Assembly (NCBI RefSeq): GCF_003003795.1
Contig: NZ_PVWK01000017.1
Location: 175,185-239,184 of the forward strand
DNA from: Stenomitos frigidus ULC18
GTDB lineage: Bacteria > Cyanobacteriota > Cyanobacteriia > Leptolyngbyales > Leptolyngbyaceae
DNA length: 64,000 nt
Direction of reading: 5' to 3'
Positions within the stretch are counted from its first letter, which is position 1, and each line of letters opens with the position of its first letter. The notes under the pieces are model-generated. The model saw only the letters and a program-made list of their open reading frames with translations. It ran no database searches and was not told the DNA's origin. This document shows positions 37,960 through 56,365 of this stretch, in pieces. The translations under genes were made by a program, and so were the position numbers.

Positions 37960-39113
37960 TGGTCACTCAGCTTAAAATCAACGCCTTTCTGTGCAGGCGT
38001 TGATAAAACCCGCAGGGTGGCATAGTGACGCTGGTAGCGAAGACTCCGATGTTTGACTCATCAAACTGAGAGGCTGAGCGTTGGGGCAGGCTAGAAGCAG
38101 CGGTAGCACAAGCACAGGCACAAAGCACGGCAGCATGGCTGGGGCTGAGACTACACCTTCACTGCAATCAGGTTAGTGTTCGGTGGACTGGCTCTCAGGT
38201 GAGAATTTTCAGGTCCTTTGTGCAATCAGGCTTGCCGCCTGCTGTCAATAGCCAGCCAAAAAACGGGCAATGCTGATCAGACCTACGCTTGGTCCAATAA
38301 TCCTGCCCTCAGAGACAGCACGACCATGAGTGGCGAGAACAGCGGCAGCAGGAGAATCATGCAGTCCAGTTGCTGGTTCTCTCTTGCTCCCAGCAACTGG
38401 GCTGCCAAGCAAGACTACACTTTGTTTCATCCTTAGCTGCTAACCGCAACACTTTCATTAACAGTGAAGCCAGCAGTGCGATGGCAAGAAGCAACTCGCC
38501 AAAGTCGTCAAGCGTCAAAAGTATGAATACGCAAAGCCAAAGCTTCTGAAATTTCTATACCGACCTGCATTTTGATTGGTTTAAGTTATAGCGTTTTTTT
38601 GCTAAAACTGACTTTTTCGCCCAATTTAGTACGATTTTATACGCAGTAGAAGCATTTCACACTGATCTCATTTTTACTTTGTCTATAGAGATTCAAAGTC
38701 TGATCCATCGCGTTCTCAAAAATCAATCTCTTAGCCGCGAGTATTGAAATATCCCAAACCCTGGAAGCACCTCCCCATCGAGCATCAAGCACTTCCCATA
38801 TGTGCTTAATTGGTGCTTACAGACATTTTCAATTTTAAAGCGCACTTATGAGCAGAAATTTTTACTAAAATAAGCCGTTTTCGCCTCAAAAACACGATGA
38901 CTTAATATTTCTTATTAATTCGGCAGGCAAGACCTTCTGAACCGCAAAAGATCAGTAGTCAAGGTTGTTGTTAAGCAAATTGGTATCTGCAAAGATTAAT
39001 CGTGCTTCGAGTCAGTTTTGATTGTTAGAAGCAATGACTATTTAACGTAAGAGAAAGAAGCTTTTTCCTGACTCAAATGATGTCCACTTCTCTTTGATCA
39101 AGCAAAGGTCAAT
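37960..39113. other. Long non-coding stretch, about 1150 bp
   Basis: No reading frame here looks genuine. The first 550 bp are GC-balanced, like the ORF debris at 36000-38000. From about 38560 the sequence turns AT-rich (GTTTTTTTGC near 38594). A 12-nt word at 38887-38898 (AAAAACACGATG) also occurs in the putative CvkR operator region at 53303-53314. No tRNA, CRISPR or transposon end was recognised. Confidence 0.4.
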
Positions 39114-39326
39114 ATGGCGCATTTTCTAACACTATCTAAGTTTATCTTCAATATCGATTGTGTTCAGCAGGTTCAATTTCTACCAGATCCTCCCACCGTT
39201 TCAATTCTTTGGGCATCCGGCTATGAAGAAACAATCATTACTGGTCAGGATGCTTTAGTTTTTATGGATGCAGTTAATCAATTTTCAGTCGGCGATCTAA
39301 CAACACTTCCCTCCACAGGAGAATAA
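39114..39326 (+). CDS. Small conserved-looking cyanobacterial protein (70 aa), unknown function
   Basis: ATG at 39114 follows CAAAGGTC, a possible weak ribosome site. The protein (MAHFLTLSKFIFNIDCVQQV, then VSILWASGYEETIITGQDAL) is compact, with alternating strands and a final helix, and contains no low complexity. It resembles short cyanobacterial hypothetical proteins. It sits 336 bp upstream of the divergent cas12k gene on the same strand, where other V-K elements may carry a regulator, but it has no helix-turn-helix that I can see. Confidence 0.55.
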   Translation: MAHFLTLSKFIFNIDCVQQVQFLPDPPTVSILWASGYEETIITGQDALVFMDAVNQFSVGDLTTLPSTGE

Positions 39327-39662
39327 GGCGAGCCTGAAAAGACTTTGATGCATCAGTCCCCATAGTCAGACCATCAAGTGAGACGATTGCGAAATCAAAT
39401 ACAGCGTCAGCATTCATTTAACACATGAAGGCTTATTTTCCGATGCTTTATACAAGCAAAAGTTTAAGCGCTTGGCTTTTTTTGGCGATTGAATTCGAAG
39501 CTCTTAGTTAAGAGCGGTAAATTTCATTGCCCTCGTAACAAGCTTGGAGCTAGTTGCAGTAGTACTCAATCTACTGAATTAAACCCATGCCTATTTATTT
39601 ACTGCTTGTTCCTGAGTGATTAGACACTGCACTTTACTTAGAGACTTAGAGACGGTTCAGAT
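39327..39662. other. Upstream region of CAST-1 cas12k, 336 bp
   Basis: No gene is visible. A tandem repeat of TTAGAGAC lies shortly before the start codon (about 39639-39654). No copy of the CvkR-type palindrome and no MerR-type gene was found beside this cas12k. Confidence 0.35.
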
Positions 39663-42140
39663 ATGCAGATGCGGACTATTAAAACTGACTCCATAGTCAG
39701 AATCACCCAGCGTCGTAAAAGGAAGGGAGTCACAGAGGACCTGCCCTCGTTTGATGAAGCAGCCTGGTGCCGTTTATGTGAATTTAGCTATAAACATACG
39801 CTGCTGGTCGATACGATCGTTAGCCAGATCAAACAGCATCATAAGCTCATCAATTGGATACGTAGCAGTCAAGAGCTTCAAAGACAGGATGACACCACTC
39901 AGGAAACAGAAGCGAAGCAGGGGCAAAATGGGTTGCCAGAGGGGTTAGTCAAAGCATTGTGTGATGCTCTAGCAAGCACGCCTCAGTTTAGTAAGATGTC
40001 TGGACGCTTCTATACCTCAGCTATCGATCGCGTTGAAGAACTCTTCAAAGGCTGGTTTGCTGCTCACCAAAAATTGATCCATAAAATAAGGGGAAAACGA
40101 CGCTGGTTGGCAGTTGTTGAAAGTGATGCTGCTTTAGCTGAGACCAGTAATTTTAGCCAGCAGGAAATCGAGATAAGAGCTGCGCAAATCCTAGCCGAAC
40201 TAGAAGCTCACAATGGAACGAATGCTGGCAGCAATGATCATGTAGATTTCAACACCCTATTCCAGAAATTTGACGAGACAGAAGAGACTCTAGCTCGCCG
40301 TGCCATTATTCATCTGCTCAAAAATGGAGGTAAGACCCACGCGGAAGTAAAGAAGCCTAGAAAGAGAAAGAGAAAGGGCAAAAGCATCTCTACACAGCCT
40401 CTAACGCTTACTGAGCGTTTGGAAGCGCAGCGAGTTGGAATAGAACGTTTGGAAAAGCAGCTTCTAGGACAGCTTCCGAGAGCCAGAAATCTCTTTCCTG
40501 AACAGGCATTTGAGCACCATCTGGAAGCGGTAATTGCCATGCCGAACTCAGATGCAACCGAGCTTGAGCGGTATTACTTTTTGTATTTCTCACTGTTGCT
40601 TTATCTTGCCGATGCCAACGAGTATCTTCAACTTGAGCGGCACTTACTGACAACACTGGTACTTCAATGGAGCAAATTAGGTGATCTCCATTACTATCGA
40701 GTTTTGATTTATGCTTTTATGCTGCACGCTGCCTCTGCACAGCAATATCTTCAACTTGGGTCTTATTTACTGCAAACCATCAAACTTGAGGCAGAAAGAG
40801 TTGAAGCTGCTTTCTTTGCTTGGCATGAGTCAATCACACCAAAGTTACACGACTTCTTGAGAGAGCCCAAAGCTCTACCCTACCCCATTAGTTTTGGCTA
40901 CGATGATGTCCGATCGTGGCAAATGAATCAAAAAGGGAAAATTTTCTTCAAGTTAAATGGTTGGGGTGACTTGCTCTTTGAGGTACGTTGCCACCATCGT
41001 CAGTTGCCGCTGATCAAAACCTTTCTGAAGGACTGGCAAACTAAAAACGCCTCTGAAAGGAAAGCTCAATCTTCAAAGAAGGATCCATTTACAGGGAGCT
41101 TGATGCTGCTCCGTTCCATTGAACTGATCTGGAAGCCTAAAGAAGCCAGCGATCAAAAAGATGCCCAGTTGTGCTCCCACTGCGAGGTGTTTCAGCAGTC
41201 CAGCGAACAAGGGTTCTGGAATGAATGCAAGCTCACGATTCATTGGACTTTTAATGCCGAGGCTCTGACACGTCAGGGTTCAGAAAAGATGCGTCAGCGC
41301 AAGCTGGAGCTACAGTTGCAGCAGTTGCAGGCGAAACAGGCAAAGCTGGAACAGCAGCAAGACCGGCTGGACAAGTTGGAGCAAGCAGCACCAGAAGCTG
41401 CCAAGAGCCAAGAGCAACTCAAACGCATTAGGAATCTGAAAAAGCAGATTCAGCAGCTTCAGGAAGATCTTGCCAAACTACGCCCAAAACTAGCTTGTCT
41501 CCAAGCTGCCCAACCGTTTGGGCGTCCCGATCGCCCCCTTTACGAAGGTGTCCCCAACATCTTTGTTGGTGTGCTCCTTGATCTCGACACACATCTTGCC
41601 GTGACCGTCGTGGATGCGATGCGCCGTAAGCGTTTAGCCCTCCGCAGCGCTCCTAAGATTTCATCAGAAGGTTACAGGCTCCTCCAAAAATATTTTCGGC
41701 AACGACAGGAACACTCAAAACAACGCCAAGAAGATCAGCAAGCACAGCGGTATAGCCATCAGACTGAATCTGGCTTAGGTCAACAGGTAGACCGTTTGTT
41801 TGCCAAAGGGTTAGTTGAATTAGCACAGGCGTACAAAGCTAGCACGATCGTCATCCCGATCAAGGGTGGATGGCGGGAGCGATTATATAGCCAGCTAGTT
41901 GCCAGAGCCAAACTTAAGTGCAATGGCAACAAACAAGCGATGGCTCGATACACCAAAGCACATGGCGAACGGCTGCATCAGTGGGATTACAACCGTTTAA
42001 GCCAAGCAATCACGGATTGTGCCGCCACGCATGGTATAGAAGTTGTTTTACAAAAAACTGTGTTTGAAACAGATGTGTTTCAACAGGCAGCAAACCTTGC
42101 AATCGCAGCTTACGATTCGTTAAATTCTGCTCAAACGTGA
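39663..42140 (+). CDS. cas12k: Divergent, oversized Cas12k (type V-K effector) of CAST-1
   Basis: An 825-aa protein collinear with Cas12k, which is usually near 640 aa. Shared stretches in order: SGRFYTSAIDRVEELFKGW, GKRRWLAVVESDAAL, ARRAIIHLLKNGGK, ALPYPISFGYDD, NQKGKIFFKLNGWGDLLFEV, RPLYEGVPNIFVGVLLDLD, GLGQQVDRLFAKGLVELA and HQWDYNRLSQAI. The RuvC-I position reads GVLLDLD instead of GIDxG and the second RuvC site reads IPIKGGWRE, so it is predicted not to cut DNA, as in known Cas12k. Extra length comes from a longer N-terminus, an insertion after the LLKNG motif (about 215-420) and a coiled coil (about 545-620, rich in Leu/Gln/Lys). A tracrRNA region, CRISPR array, homing spacer and transposon end follow on the same strand. 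It should guide RNA-directed transposition. Confidence 0.87.
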   Translation: MQMRTIKTDSIVRITQRRKRKGVTEDLPSFDEAAWCRLCEFSYKHTLLVDTIVSQIKQHHKLINWIRSSQELQRQDDTTQETEAKQGQNGLPEGLVKALCDALASTPQFSKMSGRFYTSAIDRVEELFKGWFAAHQKLIHKIRGKRRWLAVVESDAALAETSNFSQQEIEIRAAQILAELEAHNGTNAGSNDHVDFNTLFQKFDETEETLARRAIIHLLKNGGKTHAEVKKPRKRKRKGKSISTQPLTLTERLEAQRVGIERLEKQLLGQLPRARNLFPEQAFEHHLEAVIAMPNSDATELERYYFLYFSLLLYLADANEYLQLERHLLTTLVLQWSKLGDLHYYRVLIYAFMLHAASAQQYLQLGSYLLQTIKLEAERVEAAFFAWHESITPKLHDFLREPKALPYPISFGYDDVRSWQMNQKGKIFFKLNGWGDLLFEVRCHHRQLPLIKTFLKDWQTKNASERKAQSSKKDPFTGSLMLLRSIELIWKPKEASDQKDAQLCSHCEVFQQSSEQGFWNECKLTIHWTFNAEALTRQGSEKMRQRKLELQLQQLQAKQAKLEQQQDRLDKLEQAAPEAAKSQEQLKRIRNLKKQIQQLQEDLAKLRPKLACLQAAQPFGRPDRPLYEGVPNIFVGVLLDLDTHLAVTVVDAMRRKRLALRSAPKISSEGYRLLQKYFRQRQEHSKQRQEDQQAQRYSHQTESGLGQQVDRLFAKGLVELAQAYKASTIVIPIKGGWRERLYSQLVARAKLKCNGNKQAMARYTKAHGERLHQWDYNRLSQAITDCAATHGIEVVLQKTVFETDVFQQAANLAIAAYDSLNSAQT

Positions 42141-42299
42141 ATGCAATTTCTGCCTAAAGCAGTATTATTTGAGCCATGCGTCGAAGGTACATGCTCTACA
42201 GACTCAGGTCTTTTAGTGTCTCTGTGCTGGGGATTAGTCTTAGTGAACGGAGAGTCACTTTGGATCGGTCACAAGCTTTTCCTTAAGTGATTCTAACCG

Positions 42300-42760
42300 A
42301 CGAACTAAGTGATCGAGAGGGTTATGTTTTACCATCGCAAGGTGGATACTGTCAGACCCTCGGTAGCTGCTTGCTCCTGGTGAGGTGCCCTGACACCTTA
42401 CCCTACTACAGCAATGTGTGTGGCTGTCTGGTTATGAGCGAAGTTAGGGCATAGGTTCCTTACCTGATTCAATCATAAATTACGCGACCAGATAAGTGAG
42501 TATGATCCGCAAGGATCTATATGTCTTTAGCAAAGAGGCTTTTCTGCTTTGTTACTGGCGTAGGGCATGGTTCCCAGGACTTCTAGGGAATTAATCGTCT
42601 CAGATCCAAACCATAAGGCAAACCCTGCTTGGAGGTTTCGGTATTTTGGGACAACTTAAATTTTGGAAGTCCTTAAAGTGGCTACTGAATCTTCCCAATT
42701 TTTTTGGCAAACCGAAGCGGGAGCAATATTCCTGGCACGTTTGCCAAATTCCTGTATTCC
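42300..42760 (+). ncRNA. tracrRNA region of CAST-1 (limits approximate)
   Basis: The 742 bp between cas12k and the array contain, in the right order, blocks matching recalled V-K tracrRNA: AGAGGGTTATG at about 42316, then CAGACCCTCGGTAGCTGCTT near 42353-42372, and GTGGCTACTGAATC near 42678. An AATTTTTTTGGC stretch near 42697 could pair with the crRNA repeat. The equivalent CAST-2 locus has the same blocks. Exact ends cannot be read from sequence alone. Confidence 0.65.
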
Positions 42761-42882
42761 TGGCTAGATAAAGGTTTTACGATCACTGCTGCTTGCTAAA
42801 GCCTTTCACTGAAGGGCAAAAGTGAGGCAGAAGCAGGGGTTTGGCTTGAAACCGTTGCCAGCTAGGAATCTTGATGCCAAGG

Positions 42883-42992
42883 GTCGCAATGACTGTTTTG
42901 GCTTGGGGTGGAATGAAAGCTTAAAGCGCCGAGGTTCCTGAAAGGCAGTACCATTGTCGCAATGACTATTTTGGCTTGGGGCGGAATAAAAG
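42883..42992 (+). CRISPR. Two-repeat CRISPR array of CAST-1
   Basis: Two 37-bp repeats (42883-42919 and 42956-42992) begin GTCGCAATGACT, share TTTTGGCTTGGGG and differ at three positions. They flank one 36-bp spacer (42920-42955). The second repeat ends AATAAAAG instead of AATGAAAG. A decayed third copy may lie at about 43021-43057, keeping CTATTTTGGC at 43032-43041. The repeat has the same length and GTCGCAAT start as the CAST-2 repeat but a different core. It lies downstream of cas12k and the tracrRNA, the usual V-K order. Confidence 0.8.
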
Positions 42993-43080
42993 AACCATTG
43001 AGAGTACCGAATTCATAGTTGAGCGAAGCCGCTATTTTGGCATATTGGATGTCATAGGTAGCATCCGTTCTATTACAATT

Positions 43081-43121
43081 CTGTCTATTGGGAAGGATGA
43101 AAGAGGCAAGGGTCTGCAAAA
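43081..43121 (+). CRISPR. Delocalised half-repeat and 18-nt homing spacer matching tRNA-Cys
   Basis: A degenerate repeat end (TTGGGAAGGATGAAAG, ending at 43103) is followed by AGGCAAGGGTCTGCAAAA (43104-43121). These 18 nt are identical to the tRNA-Cys gene on the minus strand (43511 down to 43494), where they are preceded by GTA, a valid GTN PAM. Short delocalised spacers aimed at the tRNA attachment site are the known homing mode of V-K CASTs. Confidence 0.88.
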
Positions 43122-43152
43122 CCCTGTGTACGGTAAAGTTAACAGCACATTA

Positions 43153-43210
43153 CATCTAAAAAACTAACGCACCTAAACCTGATGGTTTAGGTGCGTTAGT
43201 TTTTTAGATG
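43153..43210. terminator. Perfect 27-bp stem hairpin with TGAT loop, probable terminator
   Basis: Arms 43153-43179 and 43184-43210 are exactly complementary over 27 bp around a four-base loop. The right arm contains TTAGTTTTTTAG, so a run of six T lies in the stem itself, and the left arm supplies A6 for the opposite strand. It lies 31 bp past the homing spacer and before the TnsB repeats. It most likely ends the crRNA transcript and insulates the transposon from outside transcription. The unusually long perfect stem could also have another role. Confidence 0.7.
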
Positions 43211-43312
43211 CGGTCAATGGAGTTTGACTAACTTAACAGTTTCAGTTTCCTGTCAACTTTGCCTTTACTAGCTTGCTGTACCGCTCAAGCCCTCTCAAAC
43301 TGTCAGCGGCTA

Positions 43313-43445
43313 GCGACATTAGTGTGCGAAAAGTGCTCGAAAACGACAAAAACGACATTAAAGTACGAATATCGTCGCAAGACGCTAAAATTCAGCAAAA
43401 ACGACACTAACGCGCGAATCGCGACATTTAGCGTGCGACCGTACA
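43313..43445 (-). repeat. CAST-1 terminal region with TnsB-type repeats
   Basis: Read on the minus strand from 43445: TGTACGGTCGCACGC at the tip, then repeated units of the form CGCACGCTAAATGTCG, CGCGCGTTAGTGTCG, TCGTACTTTAATGTCG and TCGCACACTAATGTCG. At least four units are spread to about 43313. TGTAC tips and arrays of a roughly 17-bp motif ending in TGTCG are the hallmark of V-K ends. The unit differs in its first half from that of CAST-2. Confidence 0.83.
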
Positions 43446-43460
43446 ACAACTCACCCTTGA

Positions 43461-43531
43461 AGGCGGCACCCAGATTCGAACTGGGGATGAGGATTTTGCA
43501 GACCCTTGCCTTACCACTTGGCCATGCCGCC
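43461..43531 (-). tRNA. tRNA-Cys (GCA)
   Basis: Acceptor arms GGCGGCA and TGCCGCC pair perfectly. The anticodon loop is TCTGCAA with GCA, the T arm has GTTCGAATC, and the discriminator is U, as usual for tRNA-Cys. The gene is intact. It contains the GTA PAM (43514-43512) and the protospacer of the CAST-1 homing spacer. CCA is not encoded. Confidence 0.95.
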
Positions 43532-44084
43532 GGAATTATAATTTATCTGCCGAAACTTGACTATACCAAATTTCATTCGCTACTGATCTACTGAATGTGT
43601 CTATGTTGATCCATAAGCAAAGGGTTATAGATATGGCTGTTTGGCAACAGAAACATTGGAGAGGTTGGAACAACAGTGACGCTCTACTGGCAATGCGCCA
43701 ATCTTGATGAACCTGCACTATAGCTATAGCCATACTCACGCCCCCACTCCCCCTTTGATCCCAATGTCCTAAGCTTTTTGACAACAGCTATATCTGTTTT
43801 TTGTGGCGGCTCTGACCGGCTGAACAGGAGTATGTTGCTCAAAATCCCAAGGCTCTGATTGCGGTGCTCGATCGCCGTATCACAGTAAATTAAGTACTTT
43901 TGCGCATGTTTTCGCGCTTCTGTCGCGCTGGATGAAGCAAAACCGGGCTTCAGGATAGTCGATTTGTCCCCTGACACAAGCTGGTGAACAACGATTGAAC
44001 AATCAAGCTACGTTCACGCGCTGATTTAGCCGCAACAGGGTACTGCTGTGACAGACAAGAAGCCGTAAAGTCTTCAGCTTTTTC
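43532..44084. other. Intergenic, about 550 bp, no gene supported
   Basis: Two short minus-strand frames are open here (43536-43784 and 43684-43977), but neither resembles a protein family or has a ribosome site. This is probably ordinary chromosomal spacer between tRNA-Cys and the large CHAT gene. Confidence 0.4.
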
Positions 44085-47000
44085 CTACCACGGGTTGCCA
44101 ATCATGGTAAAGGCCGCCCAGTAGTAGGGATGGGTGAGTTGCCGATCGCGTACCGCAAGGCTGGCGGGGGGTAAAGGAATCCCTTCGCCTGCTTCGATAC
44201 CTTGCAGGCGACCATTTTCGAGAAAGACCCGTCCTTTTGCCATATCGAGTTGTGCCTTGCGGAGTGCTTCAGCTTTGATGCGAGCCGTCCGCAGGTCTTT
44301 GTAGAAGCCGGTCATGAGGGCAGTGGTGGCGGCATCACTGACGTACCAGAGGCTAGCAACGGCGGTTTTAACGCCCGTTTGGACAGCCAGCCCCCCAAAC
44401 CCTAGCTCGGCTTCGCGATCGCCCAAAGCCGTGGCACAGGCGCTAAGCACCAGGAGTTCGATCTGCGGCTCGTTCCAGCCCAGTTGACGCACCTGATCAA
44501 GCCGAAGTTTGTCGTTCCAAAGCTGGATGTAGGAATTACTGTTCGCGCCCGGATAAAAGTCGGCGTGAGTTGCCATATGAATGATGCCAAAGGGCTGCTC
44601 TTTCCGAAAGGCTTTGAGGTTTTCGAGGGTGACGTTGTTGTTGAAGGCGAGCCGTCCTGACCACAGTTGATTGACCAGTATGGAGACTTCGACGGGTACG
44701 GCTGGTAGGGGTGGCTGATCCTGCGTACTTTCTGAGATGCCTAGCCCCAATACCTTTACGTCTCGAATGTTGCGGTAGCGGGTATCGGTGAGGCTCAGGC
44801 TGGGCATAACGCCAAGGCTGTATTTCTCAATCAAAAAGCCTTGACCATCGTTAAGAGCAGCCACGGGCAGCGATCGCAATCCGGTATCCATCAAAAACAC
44901 CAGATTATCGATGCCTCTGGTTTGCAGGTCAGGGGCGATCGGTGCAATCAGCCACTGGTAAAGTTGGCGGCTCATACCCATGTAGGTGACAGCACGAGTT
45001 TTGCGCGGGTCGGAGATTTCGTTGCGAAATTGTTGTGCCAGGGCAATGACTTTGCTACGCGTTGCTTCGGGAAGGCGCTTGCGAATAGCATCACCCTTTG
45101 CGGTGATCACCACCAGTTCAAGCTGATCGGTGGCATCTGACTTCGCAACGTCGTCCGTTTGCAGTTGCTTTGCCTGGTCTGGCTGCTGAGTCACGCCTAG
45201 CGAGGCGGGCACAAAGCTGATGTAAATGAAGGCAGGCTTGGCTCCCGTATCTTTTTCAATGCGCTGGGCGATGTCGCGTGGTTCTTCACGAGATTTGGGA
45301 CGAGTATCTTCCAGGCCAAGGTAAGACTCGAACGTGCGGGTGAAGCGGTCTTCTGGGGTGTCTGGTGCCAGTTTGAAGGTTTGCAGTGGAGTGACGTTCG
45401 GTTTAAGATCCGTTTTGGAGCAGCTTGTCAGCGCACAGAGGTCTGGGATGTTGACCTTGACCGCCACCTGCACCTGCACCTGCACTGGGTTTGAGGTCGA
45501 AACCCCATCGCTGGCTCTCAGCGTAAAGGCGTTCAGCAGCCCCGTGGCATCGGTCGGTGGCGTATAGACCAGAACATCACCAGGGGCAAGCGTGACACTG
45601 CCAGGAACGACCGGATTGCCGTTGAGGGTGAGCGTTGCACCAGGGGCGATCGACGCAATGGTCAGCGTCGTCACGTCCTGGTTCACATCGGTGATTGTCG
45701 GGGCGATCGCGGCATAGCTGATCACAAACGGAGTATTTTTGATGGCTCCTGAGAGGGATGTGGTGGCGCTCAGGGTCGGTGGCGTGTTCACCGCAGTCAG
45801 GGCAATGCCAGTCGCGGGTACCACCGTGATTGTGTTTGCCTGCACCGGAAAACTACCGGAGGCGATGACGTTGCCGCCGCCCCGGTTGATTGCGCCTGCT
45901 GTACCGTTTGTGCTGGCAGACCCAACCACAAAGGGGAGGTTATTCGGCCCCCCATCGTGTTGAATCGCTACCGTCCCGCCCGTATTTGTTCCTTGCGTGT
46001 CGATTGTGGTGCCTGCTTGTGTGCCTTGTACCAACCCTGTTGCTGTGACTGTCACGTCGCCCCCTGCGCCTGTCGCATTCAGCAGGGTTTCGATGCCGCG
46101 CGTATCGATTCTCGTAAAGGTAATGTTGCTGCCAGGGGCAGAACCAGCGGTAAGCGTAACGGCTCCTCCCTGGTAGGTTGGGGTGCCGATCGCAAACGTG
46201 GCATTTGAAATGGCTGAGGCATTGATGGTGCCAGTCAAAATGCTACTTCCGGCTTGCAGTGTCACAGCCCCCCCCTGAGCGCCGTAGCCGTTGCCCCCTG
46301 TATAAAACGAGTTGATATCGTTTGTGGTGATGGAGCCACCAGCAGTCAGGCTAATGTCTCCTCCGCTTAAAGACGCAAACGAGGTGCCTGTAGAGGACGC
46401 GTTGATCGTGCCCGTTGTGATATTGCCAGGTGCGGCCAAAATCACCGATCCCCCATTGTCGAACCCTGCGCCGCTAGTGGTGAGGTTTCCAACCGTAATG
46501 CTGGCGGGTGAAGCTGTCGTTCCGGGAGAGCTAAACGTGGTGCCTCCCTGGGTTTGAGGTATGTTGGCGGCTGCAACAGAGATCCCTGCCCGCAAAATGA
46601 GTGCCCGTTCAGTCGTCAAAACAGTGAAATCAGGATCGGTAGCAGGAATATTAATAGGAGTATCAGGACCAGTGATCGTGATGTTGCCCCCGGTAATACT
46701 GCCTCCAGCTTCTACCTTGAGTGCGGCACCTGTGTAATTACCAAAGGTGACATCTCCACTTGAGGTCACGATCGGGTCATAGAGACTAATGAGGTTCCCC
46801 GGTTGTCCTGATCGGGTGAGGATGGAGAAATTCCCCTTGCTGCCAAAGTGGGAATCGCCAGAAATCACACCATCACTGATCAGGCTCAGATCACCACCGC
46901 TCTGGAATGGTGCCGTTTGCAGGTGGTTGAGCGCCAGAATATCGATGCCCCGATCGCCCTGAATCGTCAGCATCCCACCCGCTTTTGCTGTAAATGGATT

Positions 47001-48794
47001 GGCCACGCTATCGCGAATGAATACCGTCTCCCGCGCCAGCAAATTTAAGTCTCCCGTTGTTTGCAGTTGGCTCTCTACCAGCGTCAGGTTGCGGTTAGCA
47101 GCAAGGGTAGCCGTCTGGGCTGTGGCAGTACGAACAACGACATCACCCGTTACGATCGCCGTTGCCGAGCCAGTCAAGGCAACGGTGCCATCAGAATTCA
47201 CGCTCACTCCGGTGGCGTTGCCAAAATTTCCACCCGTAAGCAGTTGAGGGAGAGAGGCGATCGGCAAACTCCAGGCATTGGGCAAAGTCGTGGGCTGACT
47301 GAGCGCGATCGGCTGAATTTCCAGACTCAACAGGCTTCCAGGCTGGCTGAGTTTAACCAGGCTTTGGCCGGGCACAGCAGCGGCAATGAGTTGTCCTCCT
47401 GGTGCGGCCAGGGTTCCAGTGCTGACGATCGTGCCACCTAGCAGTGCCAGCGTTTGACCTGACGGCACCGCTAGATTGCCGAAATTAGCAATACCGCCTG
47501 GTTGCGCCATCGTGAACGCAAATGCTCCTGGAGACCCAATCAGCGTCGTATAGTCATTCGTGCCGCTGGCATTAAACCAGCCACTGCCAAAGCCAATCCC
47601 ATTCGCAGTCGTTGCTGTAAAGGAACCAGGCACATTCAGGCTGGCATTAGCACCAAACACAAGGCCTGCCGGATTCAGCAAAAACAAGTTGGTGTTGCTG
47701 CCCGTCACCTGCAGCCGTCCGTTGATGAGGGAAGTTTCACCGCCCACGACGCGTCCCAGAATATTCTGCACCTGGGGATTGGCCAGAAAATTCGCGGTTT
47801 CATTGGCAGACAGCCCAAACCGCTGAAAGCTCTGAAACAGATTGCTGCCAGCCTGGGTGCCGCCGCTAATGTCGTAACGGTTGCCGTTGAGGGTCACGCT
47901 GGTATTCGTGCCATCGGGGGATGCTGTGACCGACTGCGCGCGCGCCGGAGCCGTTGCCATGATTCCCAGTAACGGCAAGGACGCCAGGAGCGACCCGACT
48001 TTGGCAGCTAAAGGAGCTTTCACTGGAGTAGGCGCAGCCTTGCGTCGCAGAAAAAAGCGCCCGTCAGGAAAACGGACGTCGACTGCAAGCTGATCGGCCA
48101 AGCCCCGACGTTTGAGCGCCTGGGTGACTGCTGCTCGAGCGCGCAATACCTGCTCCAGTCGCCATCCTTGAGAAGCACTGTCGGCATGGTTGCGGTAGTA
48201 GTAAAGTGGCTGCCTGACCCGCCGAATCTCAGTCACTTCCGAAAGGCGGAGGCATAGGTCGTAATCTTCCACATAGTCCAAAGCCCGGCTGATGCCGCCG
48301 ACCTGCTCGAAGACCGATCGCCGCATCAGGCGAAAGTGAAACGTCATAAAGTCGAGTAACAGCCCCTCTTTGGAGTAGGGAATGCGACACCGCTCTCCAT
48401 AGCGCATGACAACGCTCTGTTCGTCAATGTCGAGGTAGTCGGTATAAACCATCCCCGCTTGAGGATGCTCCTGAAAGGCAAGTAACGTCTGCTCCAGCGC
48501 TGTGGGAGCCAGCAGGTCATCGCTATCCACCCAGCCGAGGTAGGTGCCCGTTGTATGCGCGATCGCCGCCTGAAGGGCTGCTACCCGTCCCCGATGCGCG
48601 GCAGTCACCACACGCACCCGCCGATCGCGCTGAGCATAGCTATCGGCAATGGCAACCGAGCGATCGTCAGAGCCATCATCCCAAACCAGCAGTTCAAAAT
48701 CGGTAAACGTCTGTTGCAGTACACTTTCGATCGCGGCACCGAGATACCGCTCCCGGTTGTACGTCGTCATGACAAGCGAAATCAGCGGTGACAT
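44085..48794 (-). CDS. Glycosyltransferase 2 + haemagglutinin-type secretion domain + CHAT protease fusion
   Basis: The start is placed at the ATG encoding MSPLISLVMTTYNRERYLGA (48794), giving 1569 aa. Residues 1-225 are a family 2 glycosyltransferase (DDGSDD nucleotide-sugar motif, GWVDSDD DxD-type motif). A hydrophobic segment follows (VGSLLASLPLLGIMATA, then ARAQS), like a signal sequence but internal. Next comes a two-partner-secretion haemagglutination domain (NGNRYDISGGTQ, NLFLLNPAGLVFG), then beta-helix repeats rich in Gly, Thr and Ser, a cadherin-like unit, and a C-terminal CHAT domain with both catalytic residues (HMATHADF and LSACATAL). Haemagglutinin-CHAT proteins are common in cyanobacteria. 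A glycosyltransferase fused in front is odd, since it would keep the signal internal. A missed gene boundary (separate start near residue 255) is the main alternative. Confidence 0.8.
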   Translation of the reverse strand: MSPLISLVMTTYNRERYLGAAIESVLQQTFTDFELLVWDDGSDDRSVAIADSYAQRDRRVRVVTAAHRGRVAALQAAIAHTTGTYLGWVDSDDLLAPTALEQTLLAFQEHPQAGMVYTDYLDIDEQSVVMRYGERCRIPYSKEGLLLDFMTFHFRLMRRSVFEQVGGISRALDYVEDYDLCLRLSEVTEIRRVRQPLYYYRNHADSASQGWRLEQVLRARAAVTQALKRRGLADQLAVDVRFPDGRFFLRRKAAPTPVKAPLAAKVGSLLASLPLLGIMATAPARAQSVTASPDGTNTSVTLNGNRYDISGGTQAGSNLFQSFQRFGLSANETANFLANPQVQNILGRVVGGETSLINGRLQVTGSNTNLFLLNPAGLVFGANASLNVPGSFTATTANGIGFGSGWFNASGTNDYTTLIGSPGAFAFTMAQPGGIANFGNLAVPSGQTLALLGGTIVSTGTLAAPGGQLIAAAVPGQSLVKLSQPGSLLSLEIQPIALSQPTTLPNAWSLPIASLPQLLTGGNFGNATGVSVNSDGTVALTGSATAIVTGDVVVRTATAQTATLAANRNLTLVESQLQTTGDLNLLARETVFIRDSVANPFTAKAGGMLTIQGDRGIDILALNHLQTAPFQSGGDLSLISDGVISGDSHFGSKGNFSILTRSGQPGNLISLYDPIVTSSGDVTFGNYTGAALKVEAGGSITGGNITITGPDTPINIPATDPDFTVLTTERALILRAGISVAAANIPQTQGGTTFSSPGTTASPASITVGNLTTSGAGFDNGGSVILAAPGNITTGTINASSTGTSFASLSGGDISLTAGGSITTNDINSFYTGGNGYGAQGGAVTLQAGSSILTGTINASAISNATFAIGTPTYQGGAVTLTAGSAPGSNITFTRIDTRGIETLLNATGAGGDVTVTATGLVQGTQAGTTIDTQGTNTGGTVAIQHDGGPNNLPFVVGSASTNGTAGAINRGGGNVIASGSFPVQANTITVVPATGIALTAVNTPPTLSATTSLSGAIKNTPFVISYAAIAPTITDVNQDVTTLTIASIAPGATLTLNGNPVVPGSVTLAPGDVLVYTPPTDATGLLNAFTLRASDGVSTSNPVQVQVQVAVKVNIPDLCALTSCSKTDLKPNVTPLQTFKLAPDTPEDRFTRTFESYLGLEDTRPKSREEPRDIAQRIEKDTGAKPAFIYISFVPASLGVTQQPDQAKQLQTDDVAKSDATDQLELVVITAKGDAIRKRLPEATRSKVIALAQQFRNEISDPRKTRAVTYMGMSRQLYQWLIAPIAPDLQTRGIDNLVFLMDTGLRSLPVAALNDGQGFLIEKYSLGVMPSLSLTDTRYRNIRDVKVLGLGISESTQDQPPLPAVPVEVSILVNQLWSGRLAFNNNVTLENLKAFRKEQPFGIIHMATHADFYPGANSNSYIQLWNDKLRLDQVRQLGWNEPQIELLVLSACATALGDREAELGFGGLAVQTGVKTAVASLWYVSDAATTALMTGFYKDLRTARIKAEALRKAQLDMAKGRVFLENGRLQGIEAGEGIPLPPASLAVRDRQLTHPYYWAAFTMIGNPW

Positions 48795-49104
48795 AGTGTG
48801 CCTCAATGAAGAAACCCCTCGCTCACAACGGCGACTGCTTGAGCAAGCCTCAATCATCCACGATCAAGCTCGGTACTCAAAACTTAAATCTATGCCGAAT
48901 GATGCCCATCCCGAAAGCTGGTATAAATCTTGACAAATGCACTCATGTAAACAGCTTTGGGTGGGCGCTCCAAGCGATCATCACATGATTGAACAACCTT
49001 GCACAAAAACCTTTCGCAAAGAAGAGGCATGAAAAAATGGGAGCGGCATTAGAGCAATGCTTTTTGAAGTGTGAGGAGCCTTTGGGTATCAGAAGGCAGA
49101 AAAA

Positions 49105-49139
49105 GCTGACCGCTGACCGCTAACCGCTAACCGCTGACC
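49105..49139. repeat. Heptanucleotide short tandem repeat
   Basis: Five tandem units, GCTGACC (three) and GCTAACC (two), fill 35 bp just after the acetyltransferase gene. Heptamer tandem repeats in intergenic DNA are typical of filamentous cyanobacteria. Confidence 0.85.
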
Positions 49140-49143
49140 AAAT

Positions 49144-49641
49144 CTACTTACCGCACTGTAAACCCATAATCACCAAGTCACGGGGCTGCGTTTCAAACTC
49201 TGCGACTCCAGGTAAATAGCCCCACCGCTGAAAGCCAAACTGCTCAAACAAGCGTAGGCTCGGTTCATTGTGGGCAAAGATAAACCCCAGGAGCGTTTTG
49301 ATGCCGAAAGCAGGGCTTTGAGCGATTGCCTGCTGCAATAGCGTTTGTCCGATGCCTTTGCGACGGTAATTTGAGGAGACATAGATGCTCAGCTCCGCCG
49401 TCGCATCGTAAGCAGCCCGACCATAGTAAAACGACTGGAACCCTAGCCAACCAGCCACCTCTCCGTCTATATCCATCACCCACAGCGGTCGTTTGTCGGC
49501 ACTGTGCGCGTAAAACCAAGGCAAGCGACTTTCGACTGTAACGGTATGCAGATCGGCTGTCACCACACGGCCAGCGATCGTTGCATTGTAAATCGCGACG
49601 ATCGCCGTCAAATCCGCTTCTACTGCGTCTCGAATGTACAT
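49144..49641 (-). CDS. GNAT N-acetyltransferase, phosphinothricin-acetyltransferase-like
   Basis: A 165-aa protein starting MYIRDAVEADLTAIVAIYNA, the usual N-terminus of PAT-like GNAT enzymes. The acetyl-CoA loop is YVSSNYRRKGIGQTLLQQAI (R/Q-x-x-G-x-G/A). C-terminal motif B is HNEPSLRLFEQFGFQRWGYL. It transfers an acetyl group from acetyl-CoA to an amine; the true substrate is unknown. It lies 149 bp upstream of tRNA-Asp, transcribed away from it, and appears to be part of the resident chromosome between the two transposons. Confidence 0.88.
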   Translation of the reverse strand: MYIRDAVEADLTAIVAIYNATIAGRVVTADLHTVTVESRLPWFYAHSADKRPLWVMDIDGEVAGWLGFQSFYYGRAAYDATAELSIYVSSNYRRKGIGQTLLQQAIAQSPAFGIKTLLGFIFAHNEPSLRLFEQFGFQRWGYLPGVAEFETQPRDLVIMGLQCGK

Positions 49642-49790
49642 TACTGCCCCTTAGCGTCCACGTTGGCTGGAACTTATCACAAAGTCGGTTTTGCGTCAGC
49701 TCTTCAAGACCGCTTAAGAAAAACAAAGAAAGTGTTTGACAAAACTGGCAGCGATCGTCACAATGTAGATCGCCTCTAAAAAGGCATCGA

Positions 49791-49864
49791 GGGACTGTAG
49801 TTCAATTGGTTAGAGCACCGCCCTGTCACGGCGGAAGTTGCGGGTTCGAGCCCCGTCAGTCCCG
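49791..49864 (+). tRNA. tRNA-Asp (GTC)
   Basis: Acceptor arms GGGACTG and CAGTCCC pair, the anticodon loop is CTGTCAC with GTC, the T arm is GGGTTCGAGCCCC, and the discriminator is G, as expected for tRNA-Asp. The gene is intact. It contains the GTT PAM (49809-49811) and the 17-nt CAST-2 protospacer (49812-49828). The CAST-2 tip begins 9 bp after its end. Confidence 0.96.
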
Positions 49865-49872
49865 TAGTCTAC

Positions 49873-49990
49873 TGTACAGTGACTAATTAGCTGTCGCTGG
49901 TGACAGAATAGTGTCATCGGTGACTAATTGGTGTCATTGTGCCAATTTGCTGTCGTTAAACTGGTGGTGACAGATTATTTGTCGTTACAC
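49873..49990 (+). repeat. CAST-2 terminal region with five TnsB-type repeats
   Basis: Starting TGTACAGTGACTAATTAG, the 118 bp hold five units of the general form GTGACTAATTAGCTGTCG, alternating TGTCG and TGTCAT endings. The tip closely matches the recalled end of the Scytonema V-K element (TGTACAGTGACAAATTATC). Confidence 0.88.
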
Positions 49991-49996: not shown

Positions 49997-50022
49997 TGAC
50001 AGGGCGGTGCTCTCTTTCAACC
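49997..50022 (-). CRISPR. Delocalised repeat end and 17-nt homing spacer matching tRNA-Asp
   Basis: On the minus strand, a repeat remnant ending GGGTTGAAAG (50023-50014) is followed by AGAGCACCGCCCTGTCA (50013-49997). These 17 nt are identical to tRNA-Asp 49812-49828, next to a GTT PAM. The next base differs (T against C), so the match is exactly 17 nt. This is the same homing arrangement as in CAST-1. Confidence 0.9.
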
Positions 50023-50119: not shown

Positions 50120-50598
50120 GATTCAACCTGCCTCAGAAAGGACAGGTAATTGCGACTCGCGCAGTTGTCAGGCGGCTCATGACGCTGATTTCTTTCAACC
50201 TGCCTCAGAAAGGACAGGTGATTGCGACCCAGAGTGGACAGACGTTCACGGATGGTGGTCTGGTTCTTTCAACCTGCCTCAGAAAGGACAGGTGATTGCG
50301 ACATCACTTTCCTTTCACTGTGGCTTGAATGGCTTGGCTCTTTCAACCTGCCTCAGAAAGGACAGGTGATTGCGACATGCGTGTGCTGCCAGGGTAGCAA
50401 AAACGTCAGCCTGTCGCTTTCAACCTGCCTCAGAAAGGACAGGTGATTGCGACTTGTCGAGCGTAGCCGCCATGACTGGCACGGCAACAACTTTCAACCT
50501 GCCTCAGAAAGGACAGGTGATTGCGACATGAGCCGCGATCGCGCTCTCCACGAATTGCCGCCTTTCAACCTGCCTCAGAAAGGACAGGTGATTGCGAC
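50120..50598 (-). CRISPR. CRISPR array of CAST-2, seven 37-bp repeats and six spacers
   Basis: Repeats start at 50120, 50192, 50266, 50340, 50417, 50491 and 50562. In the likely crRNA direction (minus) they begin GTCGCAATCACCTGTC and end GCAGGTTGAAAG, the typical V-K ending. Spacers are 34-40 bp. The repeat at 50120 has three changes (at both ends of its unit), marking it as the old, leader-distal end. This agrees with transcription from the tracrRNA side leftwards. Confidence 0.95.
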
Positions 50599-51368: not shown

Positions 51369-53267
51369 TTAAGCGCGGGCTTGGTAAGCCGCGATCGCCA
51401 CAGCTCTCGCCTTCTCTTCGAGCCTGCCAACCAGGGGCTGTTTCGCTTCTTCAATAGCCAGGCCAAGTTTGCTGCCTGGGCTGCGAAGGTTCTCAAGGAG
51501 TCTGCCGTAGCTCCAACGGTGAACACTAGCGCGATACTGCTTGGCGTATTGCTGTTGCCCTTCCAGATAGCCTGGACTTTTTTGCTCGGCTTTAGCTTTG
51601 ATCTCGGCTTCGACGATGGCTCGAACGTCGCCTAGCTTGGGTAAGGCAAGACTGCTCGCGTTGTAGCGCTTAGCGATCGCCACGATCGCTTTTGCCAGCA
51701 GTCGATCAACGTACTGCCCCAGTTCCGATTCGCCAAAGTGGTCAGGGGCTGATCGCTTTTGTGCCTTGTGGCGTTGATGGGCGGTTTTCTGCTGCTCCGA
51801 ACGTCTTCGATTCAGCAGCCTATAATTCTCACCGAGTAGTTGCCGAATCCCATAGATGGCAAGCGGTTGGATCGCATGGGCATCCCAAACAACGATCGTG
51901 GCAGGCTTTTCTAAACCCAGGCTCAGTCCGACAATAATGTGAGACAGCCCCTTGTAGAGCGGTTTGCTGGGGCGATCGAACGTTGTGTTAATCCGAGTCA
52001 GGGTAGAGTTTAGGCGTTTGACATACGCTTGCTGGGTTGCCCGAAGGTCGCCCTTACTCTCCATTTGAGTGATTTTCTTGGCAATGTCTGCTGCTTTTTC
52101 TTGACGGACTTGCTCAGTCCCCTCAACCGTCCAGAGCCGCGTGTCGATGGTGCAGTAGAGGGTGAGCCGATGCACATCCCAGGGATGCCCTTTCCCTTCG
52201 CCTTCCTGCCATCCTAGACGAGCAGAGCGGAGGGTAAAAAGGCCACTAGAATGCTGATCTTTGCTGGCTCGTTTGGTCTCCTGGTCTTCTAAAAACCGTT
52301 GGAACCAGGGAAGCTGGCGTCGATCGCAGTAGATCGCAAAGGCGTGGTCACTGAACCCGTTAAAGTGGACACAGAGCCGACCCTTAGCGTTTTTCTCCCA
52401 AACTAAATCTTCATTGGTCTCGAAGATGAGCGGAAAGGGGAGCACGCCCGGTCTGGTCAGCAAACGATCTTGCCAGCGTTTAGCCTCAGCATTGTCTCTT
52501 GGAACAGTTTGAGTGGCTGTTTCAAGCGCATCAAGCCAGCTCTGCACGGTCAGGTCGCGCCCATGCGGTAGGCGACCCTCGATTTGCTCCTGAAGTCGCT
52601 TGACTTGAATCTCGACCTTACGGCGACGTTGAGCAAATTTCTGTGGGTCTTCGTCTTACTGTGGCACTTTGCAGCCGTTCTTGAGCAGGAAGGCGATCGC
52701 ACAGCGCTCCAGCACCGATTTTGTATCCTGATAGCGCTCAAACAGTTGGTTCGCCAAGCTCCGATCCGATAAGGCAACCTTCTTTTTGCTCTTCTTGCCT
52801 GGGTTCTGAGTGGGCTTGCCTGAAGCAGTGACTGGTTGAAGCTGAGTCAGAAGCGCAGCGGCACGATCGCGAAGGCTGAGGAGTTCGACGCCACTCTCTT
52901 GAGCCAACGCCTCGTCGCTTTTGAGCATTTCCAGCCAGCGCAGCTTACCATCCACCCTGCGCTGAAGGTGCTGCTGAATTTTGAGCCAAGACTTGTAGAT
53001 ATAATCTGCCATGTGGACAGCAGAAGTGTAGAGCCGTGAGGGTTGCCCCGTAAAACGGGTATCGGTTTTAAGGGGTTGGCAAAGTTGACTCACAACCGCC
53101 GTTGGATGCTTTCCCTTTTGCCGCCAGGTCTCCAAGTCTGAATGCTGGCTCATCTGCTCCAAGATTTCATTAATCAAGGGGGTATTGCGCTCTGCCATCA
53201 AACTCCAGAGTGCTTGCCGAGTAGAGGCACTGGCAACCAGACCACATTGAATCGTGATTTGACTCAT
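51369..53267 (-). pseudogene. cas12k: cas12k of CAST-2, interrupted by one in-frame TAA
   Basis: From the ATG at 53267 (MSQITIQCGLVASASTRQAL) to 51369 the frame codes for a 632-position Cas12k of normal length, very close to the Scytonema protein. One TAA at 52658-52656 interrupts it after LLKNGCKVPQ. The reading frame is the same on both sides (DEDPQKFAQRRRKVEIQ follows directly), and the stop falls where the Scytonema protein has Lys (DKEED), so an AAA to TAA change explains it. RuvC residues are already absent (VGLSLGLEK), as is normal for Cas12k. Without readthrough, only a 203-residue N-terminal piece is made. It could be a sequencing error, but a second premature stop exists in this element (hepT). 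Confidence 0.85.
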
Positions 53268-53986: not shown

Positions 53987-56323
53987 ATGGCAGAAGAGTT
54001 CGATAAGCGTTCTCTCAGTGAACGAGACATCTGCACAAAGTACATTACTCCCAGCATCGTGGGGGCTGGATGGAATGTGCAGACCCAGATCCGGGAAGAA
54101 GTGACGTTTACGAAGGGACGAGTTAACCCCAAAGGTAAACTGGTCAGTCGGGGAGAGTCGAAGCGGGCAGATTACATTCTTTACTTCAAGCCCAACATTC
54201 CTTTGGCGATCGTGGAGGCGAAGGACAATAACCACGGCATCGGCGACGGGATGCAGCAGGCACTCACCTATGCCGAGATTATGGGTATTCCCTTCGTCTA
54301 CAGTTCTAATGGGGATGCCTTTTTGGAGCACGATCGCACGGGCAATGCAGCCCAAGTCGAACGAGAATTTGCCCTCAATGAGTTTCCCTCGCCGGAGCAA
54401 TTGTGGCAGCGGTACTGCATCTGGAAAGGGATTGCGCCTGAAATTGAGCCGATCGTGACCCAGGATTACTACTTTGATGGGAGTGGTAAAGAACCCCGAT
54501 ACTATCAACTCAACGCGATTAATCAGACGATCGAGGCGATCGCCAAAGGGCAAAACCGCATTCTTTTGGTCATGGCAACGGGAACGGGCAAGACTTTTAC
54601 GGCATTTCAAATTATCTGGCGCTTGTGGCGATCGGGTGCGAAGAAACGGATTTTGTTTCTGGCTGACCGCAATATTCTGATCGACCAGACGAAAACGAAC
54701 GACTTTAAGCCGTTTGGGTCGGCGATGACCAAAATTACTAAAAGGCAAGCGGATAAGTCGTTTGAGATTTATCTGTCGCTGTATCAAGCTGTTTCGGGGA
54801 CGACGGAAGCGCAGGACATTTACAAGCAGTTTTCCCGCAACTTCTTTGACCTGGTGATTATCGATGAGTGTCACCGGGGCAGTGCGGCGGAAGATTCGGC
54901 ATGGCGAGAGATCCTGGAGTATTTTGAATCGGCAACTCAGATTGGTTTGACGGCAACACCCAGAGAAACCAAAGAGATTTCCAACATTGAGTATTTTGGG
55001 GAGTCGCTCTATACCTACTCGCTCAAGCAGGGCATTGAGGACGGTTTTCTGGCTCCCTATAAAGTGGTGAAGATTGACATTGACAAAGACCTGGAAGGAT
55101 GGCAACCGCAACCGGGACAAAAGGACAAGTATGGGCGGGAGATTGAGGATCGAATCTACAACCAGAAGGACATCGATCGCTATATTGTCTTCGAGAAACG
55201 CATTGAACTGGTTGCCCAGCGCATCACGCAGTTTTTGCAGGAGAGCGGCGACCCTTACATGAAGACGATCGTCTTTTGTGAGGATATCGACCATGCGGAA
55301 CGGATGCGAAAAGCGCTGGTGAACGAGAATGCGGCACTGGTTGCCCAGAATCGTAAGTACATCATGCGGATTACGGGGGATGAGAATGAGGGCAAGGCAG
55401 AGCTGGATAACTTCATTGCTCCTTACGAAACCCATCCAGTCATTGTCACAACCTCCAGGCTGATGACCACGGGCATTGATGCTCAAACCTGCAAGCTGAT
55501 TGTGCTCGATCGCCGCATCCAGTCCATGACTGAGTTCAAGCAAATTATTGGACGGGGCACTCGCATTAACGAGGAGTACCACAAGCTGTACTTCACCATC
55601 ATGGACTTCAAGAAGGCGACCGAGTTGTTCTACGACCCGGACTTTGATGGCGATCCGGTGCAGATTTATGAACCGAAAACGGGAGAGCCTACCGTTCCAC
55701 CCGCTGAAGACGTTGGGGAAGAGGTGGTGATCGTTGGTCCCACGACTGGCAGCAACAGGCGCGTGAAGTATGTAGTGGCAACTGAAGGCGCAGGCATTGT
55801 ACGGGAACGGGTGCAGTATTACGGCCCTGATGGTAGGTTGATCACCGAGTCGATTAAGGACTTTACTCGTAAGACGGTGCGCCAGGAGTTTGCGTCGCTG
55901 GATGCCTTCCTCAAGCGCTGGAGTGAGGCCGCGCAGAAGCAAGAGATTTTGAGGGCATTGGAGGAGCGGGGTGTTCTGCTAGAGGCGCTGGCAGAGGAAG
56001 TCGGTAAAGACTTCGATTCGTTTGACCTGATTTGCCATGTCGCGTTTGATCAGCCGCCGTTGAGCCGCAGAGAACGGGCGGAACAGGTTCGCAAGCGCGA
56101 TTACTTTACGAAATACGGAGAGCAAGTCAGAGACGTTTTGGCTGCCCTTCTGAATAAGTATGCCGATGAGGGCATTGAAAACATCGAGGATATTAATGTT
56201 CTGAAAGTTCAACCGATGAATCGATTGGGCACACCGACTGAGATTATCAAGCGATTTGGGAGCAGGCAAGCGTACTTCCAGGCAGTTCAGGAGATGACTG
56301 CAGAGCTCTACAAGGTTGCATGA
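53987..56323 (+). CDS. hsdR: Type I restriction enzyme, R subunit (HsdR)
   Basis: A 778-aa protein of the EcoEI-type short R subunits. The N-terminal nuclease domain has [20 protein letters not shown] (Asp and ExK of PD-(D/E)XK, about residues 60-84). Motor motifs are [14 protein letters not shown] (Walker A, about 196-209), [10 protein letters not shown] (DEAH-like box), [11 protein letters not shown] (motif III) and [12 protein letters not shown] (motif VI). The last 110 residues match the EcoEI R C-terminal domain ([20 protein letters not shown]). It cuts unmethylated DNA after translocation, with HsdM and HsdS. It starts 167 bp after cvkR and is the first gene of the cargo locus. A 672-codon open frame on the opposite strand (53924-55942) is a shadow. 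Confidence 0.93.
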
Positions 56324-56365
56324 TATAACATCCTAGTGGAAAGATCGGCAAGCGCTCAGGATATC

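Follow-up and report, generated by a model that had tools for sequence, protein, structure and literature searches.

Two different type V-K CASTs at neighbouring tRNA genes in Stenomitos frigidus ULC18, and flanks suggestive of copying without donor cutting

Stenomitos frigidus ULC18 carries two different CRISPR-guided transposons, CAST-1 and CAST-2, 6.4 kb apart and each beside one of two neighbouring tRNA genes. We analyzed a stretch of 64,000 nucleotides (the window) on contig C80 of a draft assembly of 167 contigs (genome G000). The features are listed below in window coordinates, except where C80 is given.

C80:140997-144761, CAST-1 right end with tnsB, tnsC and tniQ, roughly 30 kb before the left edge of the window
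1..43445 (+), portion of CAST-1 within the window (whole element C80:140997-218629, 77,633 bp)
28470..35870 (+), CAST-1 cargo, anti-phage genes MzaB, MzaC, MzaD and MzaE (PADLOC)
39663..42140 (+), cas12k-1, intact, long-form Cas12k of 825 aa (PADLOC, NCBIfam)
42883..42992 (+), two CAST-1 CRISPR repeats, 42883-42919 and 42956-42992, separated by a single spacer
43104..43121 (+), CAST-1 anchor spacer following a truncated repeat; all 18 nt match tRNA-Cys
43290..43445 (-), CAST-1 left end, TnsB-type repeats, terminal GTACA at 43441-43445
43461-43531 (-), tRNA-Cys, protospacer 43494-43511 (-), PAM GTA
44085..48857 (-), resident gene of 1590 aa with glycosyltransferase, TPS and CHAT domains (Pfam), kept in congeners
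49144..49641 (-), resident GNAT acetyltransferase gene (Pfam), adjoining tRNA-Asp in 6/6 congeners
49791-49864 (+), tRNA-Asp, protospacer 49812-49828 (+), PAM GTT
49873..49990 (+), CAST-2 left end, terminal TGTAC, TnsB-type repeats
49997..50013 (-), CAST-2 anchor spacer; all 17 nt match tRNA-Asp
50192..50598 (-), CRISPR array of CAST-2 with six matched repeats; a further, diverged repeat near 50120 seen by eye
51369..53267 (-), cas12k-2, one frame with one in-frame TAA at 52656-52658 (PADLOC family match)
53987..61200 (+), CAST-2 cargo, type I restriction-modification genes hsdR, hsdM and hsdS (PADLOC)

The first-pass annotation of the window had proposed two different V-K CASTs at neighbouring tRNAs. 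This was borne out, since tips, anchor (homing) spacers, PAMs and distances are all present and the two Cas12k proteins are only 31-38% identical where alignable. We also confirmed that CAST-1 ends 66 bp from a GTA PAM in tRNA-Cys and CAST-2 61 bp from a GTT PAM in tRNA-Asp, and that the roughly 6.4 kb of resident DNA between the tips spans 43446-49872. Both distances fall inside the 46-82 nt that PMC9938897 (118 native V-K systems) gives for the PAM-to-tip spacing; under published convention, the tRNA-side tip of each element is its LEFT end. The two left ends have TGTAC-N14-TGTYR-N15-TGTCR in common. A one-site end pattern, allowing zero mismatches, matched 90 of the 388 genomes of the class, and reversing that pattern left 4 matches (table count); Cas12k was matched in 2 of 72,556 plasmid records.

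This organization resembles that of known type V-K CASTs such as ShCAST, AcCAST and AnCAST (PMC9938897): cas12k, tnsB-tnsC-tniQ, a CRISPR array, a truncated repeat, an anchor spacer of 17-18 nt, a GTN PAM and a left end beside a tRNA. Unlike in the known systems, however, two unrelated elements occupy adjacent tRNAs here, and CAST-2 is degenerate. CAST-1 differs in its size (77.6 kb), in its Cas12k of 825 aa, compared to 639-651 aa in the solved ones, and in the lack of a matching 5-bp duplication.

CAST-1 is a type V-K CAST. Its far end and transposition genes, predicted by the first-pass annotation to lie outside the window, were found to the left of it, with tnsB-tnsC-tniQ at C80:141239-144761 behind the right end; its TniQ shares 50% identity with one that Pfam recognises. 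The stretch from the right end to tniQ, checked for TnsA, held only tnsB, tnsC and tniQ as ORFs of at least 120 aa. Cas12k-1 was assigned to its family by PADLOC (6.6e-195) and by NCBIfam V_Cas12k (409 bits, cut-off 150); its predicted structure has a mean pLDDT of 73, with the extra region mostly below 50. Among the sequences listed, a conserved non-coding stretch follows cas12k in four long-Cas12k elements; Rfam gave no tracrRNA match. The cargo includes a tyrosine recombinase gene. The left end of CAST-1 is present in a single copy in the genome.

CAST-2 has a CRISPR array, a tRNA-matching anchor spacer, a GTN PAM and the typical spacing, but its cas12k, although matching the family, is not intact. 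What had been read as two cas12k genes proved to be one continuous frame with a single in-frame TAA; a frameshift was thus rejected. The prediction of a far end and transposition genes did not hold for CAST-2 on C80, as this contig ends at window base 64000 inside an IS630-like ORF and the far part of the element is absent from it. Two other contigs carry genes matching a CAST of a congener (G002:C4), namely tnsB on C81 (93%) and tnsC (91%) and tniQ (89%) on C149, and the Cas12k of that CAST is 87-90% identical to Cas12k-2. Because of this identity of 87-93%, CAST-2 most likely continues on C81 and C149, as judged from sequence comparison. The likely tnsB is interrupted by an IS-like repeat, and CAST-2, which also has the stop in cas12k, is degenerate. 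No second copy of its left end occurs in G000. We found no right-end tip for CAST-2, and no tip with the expected TCTAC in the 235 kb of G000 searched. A far end beside gltX on C43 was ruled out, the sequence there being IS-like with no CAST tip. The broken cas12k-2 and the unmatched CAST-1 flanks were beyond what a first reading of the window could show.

We then compared the same tRNA sites in congeners, where the first-pass annotation had anticipated clean empty sites. This was correct for tRNA-Asp, which is CAST-free in G001 and G004 with gltX behind it (in G000, gltX lies on a contig other than that of tRNA-Asp). No clean empty tRNA-Cys site was found: tips or CASTs are present at this tRNA in G001, G006 and G002, and tRNA-Cys was not located in G003, G004 and G005. 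Since other CAST ends occur at the same two tRNAs in congeners, these represent a recurrent hotspot for CAST insertion.

A matching target-site duplication was not obtained for CAST-1 or CAST-2. The outer flanks of CAST-1 read TCGGG and ACAAC; its left end lies at tRNA-Cys, and its right end sits in a vapC-like remnant beside allC. The right-end tip is exact, new sequence starting at its terminal base. In all six congeners, allC and the GNAT/tRNA-Asp block are on separate contigs, which, these being draft contigs, does not in itself prove distance; the neighbours of allC vary among relatives. The partner halves of the CAST-1 flanks were not found in the 235 kb of G000 searched.

To place these flanks among those of relatives, we performed a census of V-K elements for which the pattern found both tips, giving, among the matches listed, 16 flank pairs from 15 elements, CAST-1 included. 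G292 was kept, with only a cas12k fragment remaining. Left out were G026 (34.8 kb between its tips, tnsB distant from the second of them, AGGAA/AAAAT as unmatched flanks), G133 (no cas12k or tnsB within 6.5 kb of either end), close tip pairs in G022, G113 and G333, and elements with one tip only despite the presence of cas12k or tnsB, among others G016, G033, G162, G347 (2283733), G002:C4 and G010. Among the matches listed, an exact 5-bp duplication was found in 3/16 pairs, flanking repeats of 7-54 bp in 5/16 and no repeat in 8/16. The five longer repeats measured 7, 8 and 10 bp (exact), 10 bp (9 matches) and 54 bp (53 matches), the last in G063, whose two ends lie on separate contigs. As a control, 238 mismatched pairs yielded two exact repeats of at least 7 bp and no near-exact repeat of at least 10 bp. 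Since 13 of the 16 pairs, CAST-1 counted in, lack an exact 5-bp duplication among the matches listed, such a duplication does not define native V-K members. Decay or later rearrangement could also account for the 8 pairs without a repeat.

A Nostoc genome (G374) contains two inverted CAST copies of 21,787 bp, 100% identical where compared, which share one split 5-bp duplication, CCACG. Each copy borders half of a fecR gene, and the copies are more than 1.1 Mb apart. Joining the flanks restores the FecR reading frame, which is intact in another Nostoc. Array pieces compared with 200 bp of flank gave no 11-mer match to a spacer guiding a copy into fecR. An assembly error between two identical repeats of 21.8 kb could also produce the appearance of this inversion.

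The locus combines a CAST-1 with unmatched outer flanks and a CAST-2 with a stop in cas12k, and the borders of CAST-1 are likely due to V-K elements copying themselves without donor cutting or excision and thereby rearranging the chromosome. TnsA-less transposition would join donor and target into a cointegrate, in which each copy would keep one old flank and gain one new flank. With sister chromosomes as donor and target, and the two sites offset by a few bases, the repeat at the flanks would come out at more or less than 5 bp; with different loci, a chromosome segment would be inverted or lost and the flanks left unmatched, as in CAST-1. Crossover between two copies through RecA would produce an identical footprint, indistinguishable here from copy-type transposition. 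Alternatively, CAST-1 made a simple insertion at tRNA-Cys that duplicated 5 bp, and its right flank was later replaced through an unrelated deletion, a translocation or a wrong assembly join. The draft state of the assembly and the differing allC gene order among congeners would fit this account, which we nevertheless consider rather unlikely, as the right tip is exact up to its terminal base and relatives often have repeats of odd length or none at all.

Tandem or stacked ends do occur in relatives (two tips 9 bp apart in G010; two right ends, 99.5% identical over 2.4 kb, in G347), and CAST-1 might similarly combine two related V-K CASTs, one at the vapC/allC site and the other at tRNA-Cys, that lost their inner ends. 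This is improbable: C80:140997-218629 contains neither internal tips nor another set of core genes, and a TnsB 74% identical to TnsB-1 occurs together with a long Cas12k (60%) in G063. Exact 7-, 8- and 10-bp repeats at intact tips would also be expected if V-K TnsB cut with a variable stagger, but this could not yield the 54-bp repeat of G063, unmatched flanks or the split duplication of G374, and we regard it as very improbable. We favor copying without donor cutting, and infer that in native hosts V-K CASTs transpose by a copy-type (TnsA-less) route that yields hybrid flanks and rearranges the chromosome.

A replicative cointegrate route is expected for TnsA-less, resolvase-bearing Tn7-like elements such as Tn5053 (PMC8649781, PMC11406308). 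In contrast to these, V-K CASTs reportedly have no dedicated resolvase (PMC11406308), so that their products would fall to host recombination; the CAST-1 cargo does include the tyrosine recombinase gene. A 2024 review called the handling of V-K cointegrates by native hosts unknown, and our literature searches found no paper on V-K CAST target-site duplications or rearrangements in native hosts.

Overall, the locus adds an instance of adjacent tRNAs occupied by two unrelated V-K CASTs, of which CAST-2 is degenerate and CAST-1 has open core genes. On balance, we lean toward the broader view that native V-K CASTs spread as copies rather than as clean insertions. They would exchange flanks with the site they came from, end up bordered by repeats of nearly any length, and invert or join chromosome segments on the megabase scale (fecR in G374; vapC/allC to tRNA-Cys for CAST-1). 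Their persistence in the absence of TnsA and of a dedicated resolvase would be owed to recombination of the products by the polyploid host. V-K CASTs are being developed as gene-insertion tools, and a main worry is cointegrates, since these systems lack TnsA; with flank footprints, this worry becomes testable in closed cyanobacterial genomes.

The window is the final 64 kb of contig C80 (239,184 bp) in the S. frigidus ULC18 genome (G000, a 7.0-Mb draft of 167 contigs), and the best named match for one of its resident genes is Leptolyngbya sp. FACHB-321. Two type V-K elements, CAST-1 at tRNA-Cys and CAST-2 at tRNA-Asp, have their tips 6.4 kb apart. By the published convention, the tRNA-side tip is the left end and the tnsB side the right end.

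Features of the locus (window coordinates unless C80 is given)
43461-43531, minus strand: tRNA-Cys (ARAGORN and Rfam)
49791-49864, plus strand: tRNA-Asp (ARAGORN and Rfam)
39663-42140: cas12k-1 (825 aa), left of tRNA-Cys
C80:140997: CAST-1 right-end tip
C80:141239-144761: CAST-1 tnsB (681 aa), tnsC and tniQ, behind the right-end tip

Left of tRNA-Cys, CAST-1 has TnsB-type repeats, a left-end tip whose last base is 43445, two CRISPR repeats, and a truncated repeat whose anchor spacer is 18 nt long. Right of tRNA-Asp, CAST-2 starts at 49873; its TnsB-type repeats differ in sequence from those of CAST-1, its anchor spacer measures 17 nt, and it has a CRISPR array and cas12k-2. The PAMs are GTA (CAST-1) and GTT (CAST-2), lying 66 and 61 bp from the tips, within the range of 46-82 nt that PMC9938897 gives for native V-K CASTs. 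Cas12k-1 and Cas12k-2 are 31, 32 and 38% identical in three alignable stretches. Earlier papers note two V-K CASTs at separate loci of one genome (PMC8649781) and describe changeable tRNA att sites (PMC11406308). Two unrelated elements at adjacent tRNAs add a new case to a kind already known. By eye, a long hairpin lies between the CAST-1 anchor spacer and left end (43160-43215), as at the same place in the congener G002. A 1590-aa ORF at 44085-48857 unites glycosyltransferase, TPS secretion and CHAT protease domains, and the congener G006 has a similar ORF of 1557 aa.

The first-pass annotation had proposed looking for transposition genes beyond both window edges; tnsB, tnsC and tniQ of CAST-1 were found left of window base 1 (C80:141239-144761), and the element spans 77,633 bp in total. 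End-pattern searches and a motif scan of C80 revealed no additional tip within CAST-1. The cargo includes MzaB-E and a tyrosine recombinase gene (L022:5791-6762, that is, C80:160975-161946). The latter could be a resolvase, which this class of elements is said to lack. Relatives of this gene occur near long cas12k in G060 and G006.

Cas12k-1 is a long-form Cas12k. Among the best 7,995 candidates scored, 20 proteins matched: Cas12k-1 itself, 15 of 764-868 aa, three of 562-583 aa, which cover 69-70% of Cas12k-1, and one of 645 aa. Residues about 301-385 are gaps in the 645-aa relative and partly gapped in four others. The long group (P0002-P0018; mostly 764-868 aa) has some 85-95 additional residues around 301-395 and an extended N terminus; the AlphaFold2 model is unreliable over the extra region. 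All four elements examined with a close long-form Cas12k (G000, G063, G060 and G002) sit at tRNA-Cys with an almost identical anchor spacer. Immediately upstream of long cas12k, G063 and G060 encode a TnsB-like protein of about 470 aa (L211:2692-4110, L214:12009-13424), additional to a normal tnsB elsewhere and absent from the window; by eye, its catalytic motif seems altered.

cas12k-2 is a single reading frame with one in-frame TAA, and its product is 87-90% identical to Cas12k of a CAST adjoining tRNA-Gly on contig C4 of G002. G000 contigs C81 and C149 hold genes whose products share 93% (TnsB), 91% (TnsC) and 89% (TniQ) identity with the proteins of that CAST; its TnsB aligns to C81 over residues 8-531 and to C149 over 521-596. 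Near this tnsB break, both contigs carry a common 17-bp sequence, oppositely oriented with respect to the gene, which is the arrangement expected of IS ends. From these sequences we infer that a dead CAST-2 extends onto C81/C149; a search for its far tip found none. G000 also has a third, intact cas12k (637 aa) with its own CRISPR array (L026:1229-3142, contig C54) and another broken tnsB with tnsC and tniQ (L024, contig C150); both contigs stop within CAST sequence.

In all six congeners (G001-G006), a GNAT gene lies at most 1 kb from tRNA-Asp, and tRNA-Cys adjoins a CHAT gene in two of the four whose fetched stretch extends past that gene. gltX follows tRNA-Asp about 1.0 kb (G001) and 1.8 kb (G004) further on, and end-pattern searches detected no tip in between; gltX of G000 is on contig C43. 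A comparison with clean empty sites in related genomes had been proposed as a check: tRNA-Asp sites with no tip detected exist in G001 and G004, and no clean empty tRNA-Cys site was found among the congeners with a located tRNA-Cys. A CAST-2-type tip lies 9 bp beyond tRNA-Asp in G003, and tRNA-Cys has a TGTACA tip in G001 and a different TGTACA tip with an 866-aa Cas12k relative in G006, indicating that both tRNAs were targeted more than once. Other elements use this tRNA-Asp too, given its duplication in G006 (9.2 kb apart, an integrase-like gene between; L143:111-9394) and G002 (0.4 kb apart; L139:10539-11003).

The outer 5 bases of CAST-1, TCGGG at the right end and ACAAC at the left, do not match as a target-site duplication would. 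Next to allC, the right end interrupts a vapC-like remnant that by eye already has an internal stop; the left end is single-copy in G000. allC and the GNAT/tRNA-Asp block are on separate contigs in all six congeners; as these assemblies are drafts, this means no observed linkage rather than distance.

A revealing case is G374, a Nostoc among the class genomes, where a contig of 6,618,685 bp, whose end and start join via a CAST left end, holds two inverted CAST copies of 21,787 bp each, at least 1.1 Mb apart and 100% identical over the compared 6,017 and 6,063 bases. Neither copy is flanked by a duplication by itself; CCACG is found both outside copy a's left end and outside copy b's right end. 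When these flanks are joined, they form a single frame in which a FecR domain spans the joint. This domain scores 35.5 bits (cut-off 24), while one half alone scores 23.6 and the other has no match. The joined protein shares 97% identity with an intact Nostoc FecR protein of 418 aa and matches it without any difference through the joint. The shared CCACG and the restored frame thus point to one insertion event split over two copies. The left end of copy b adjoins tRNA-Met, which is therefore probably the older site.

The end pattern matched in 90 of 388 class genomes (backwards pattern, 4 hits in all). When cas12k-side tips were paired with tnsB-side tips, the matches listed gave outer flanks of 16 pairs from 15 elements, one of them as two copies; the census covers V-K elements. 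Among these matches, an exact 5-bp duplication occurs in three pairs (G266, G150, G060), a longer repeat in five (G292, 7 bp; G166, 8 bp; G122, 10 bp; near-exact in G001, 10 bp with 9 matches, and G063, 54 bp with 53 matches) and no repeat in eight (G347, G225, both G374 copies, G160, G350, G008 and CAST-1). In 238 mismatched pairs, exact repeats of at least 7 occurred twice and near-exact repeats of at least 10 never. By eye, the G266 element is the newer of two CASTs at its tRNA and sits within the tip of the older one. Stacked elements are also seen in G010 (C1:4246506 and 4246516; L231), with two tips facing apart and 9 bp between. G347:C3 (L251, L271) carries a pair of right ends with 99.5% identity across 2.4 kb. 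They point the same way, are separated by 21.8 kb and differ in their flanks, and the outer one has lost part of tnsC and tniQ.

Cointegrate handling in native hosts is called unknown in PMC11406308 (section 2.7), and the literature listings and passages searched yielded no report of copy-type V-K transposition footprints in native hosts. In a cointegrate, each copy has a donor flank on one side and a target flank on the other. Sister chromosomes struck a few bases apart would leave flanking repeats longer or shorter than 5 bp by the offset, and donor and target at different loci would give inversions or deletions with unmatched flanks. A RecA crossover between two copies would leave the same marks. 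Misassembly, of the identical repeats in G374 or of the draft G000, may also lie behind the flank patterns there; the repeats of odd length are independent of both assemblies. Copy-type transposition, as one process, would explain the repeats of 7-54 bp and their absence elsewhere, as well as G374 and CAST-1.
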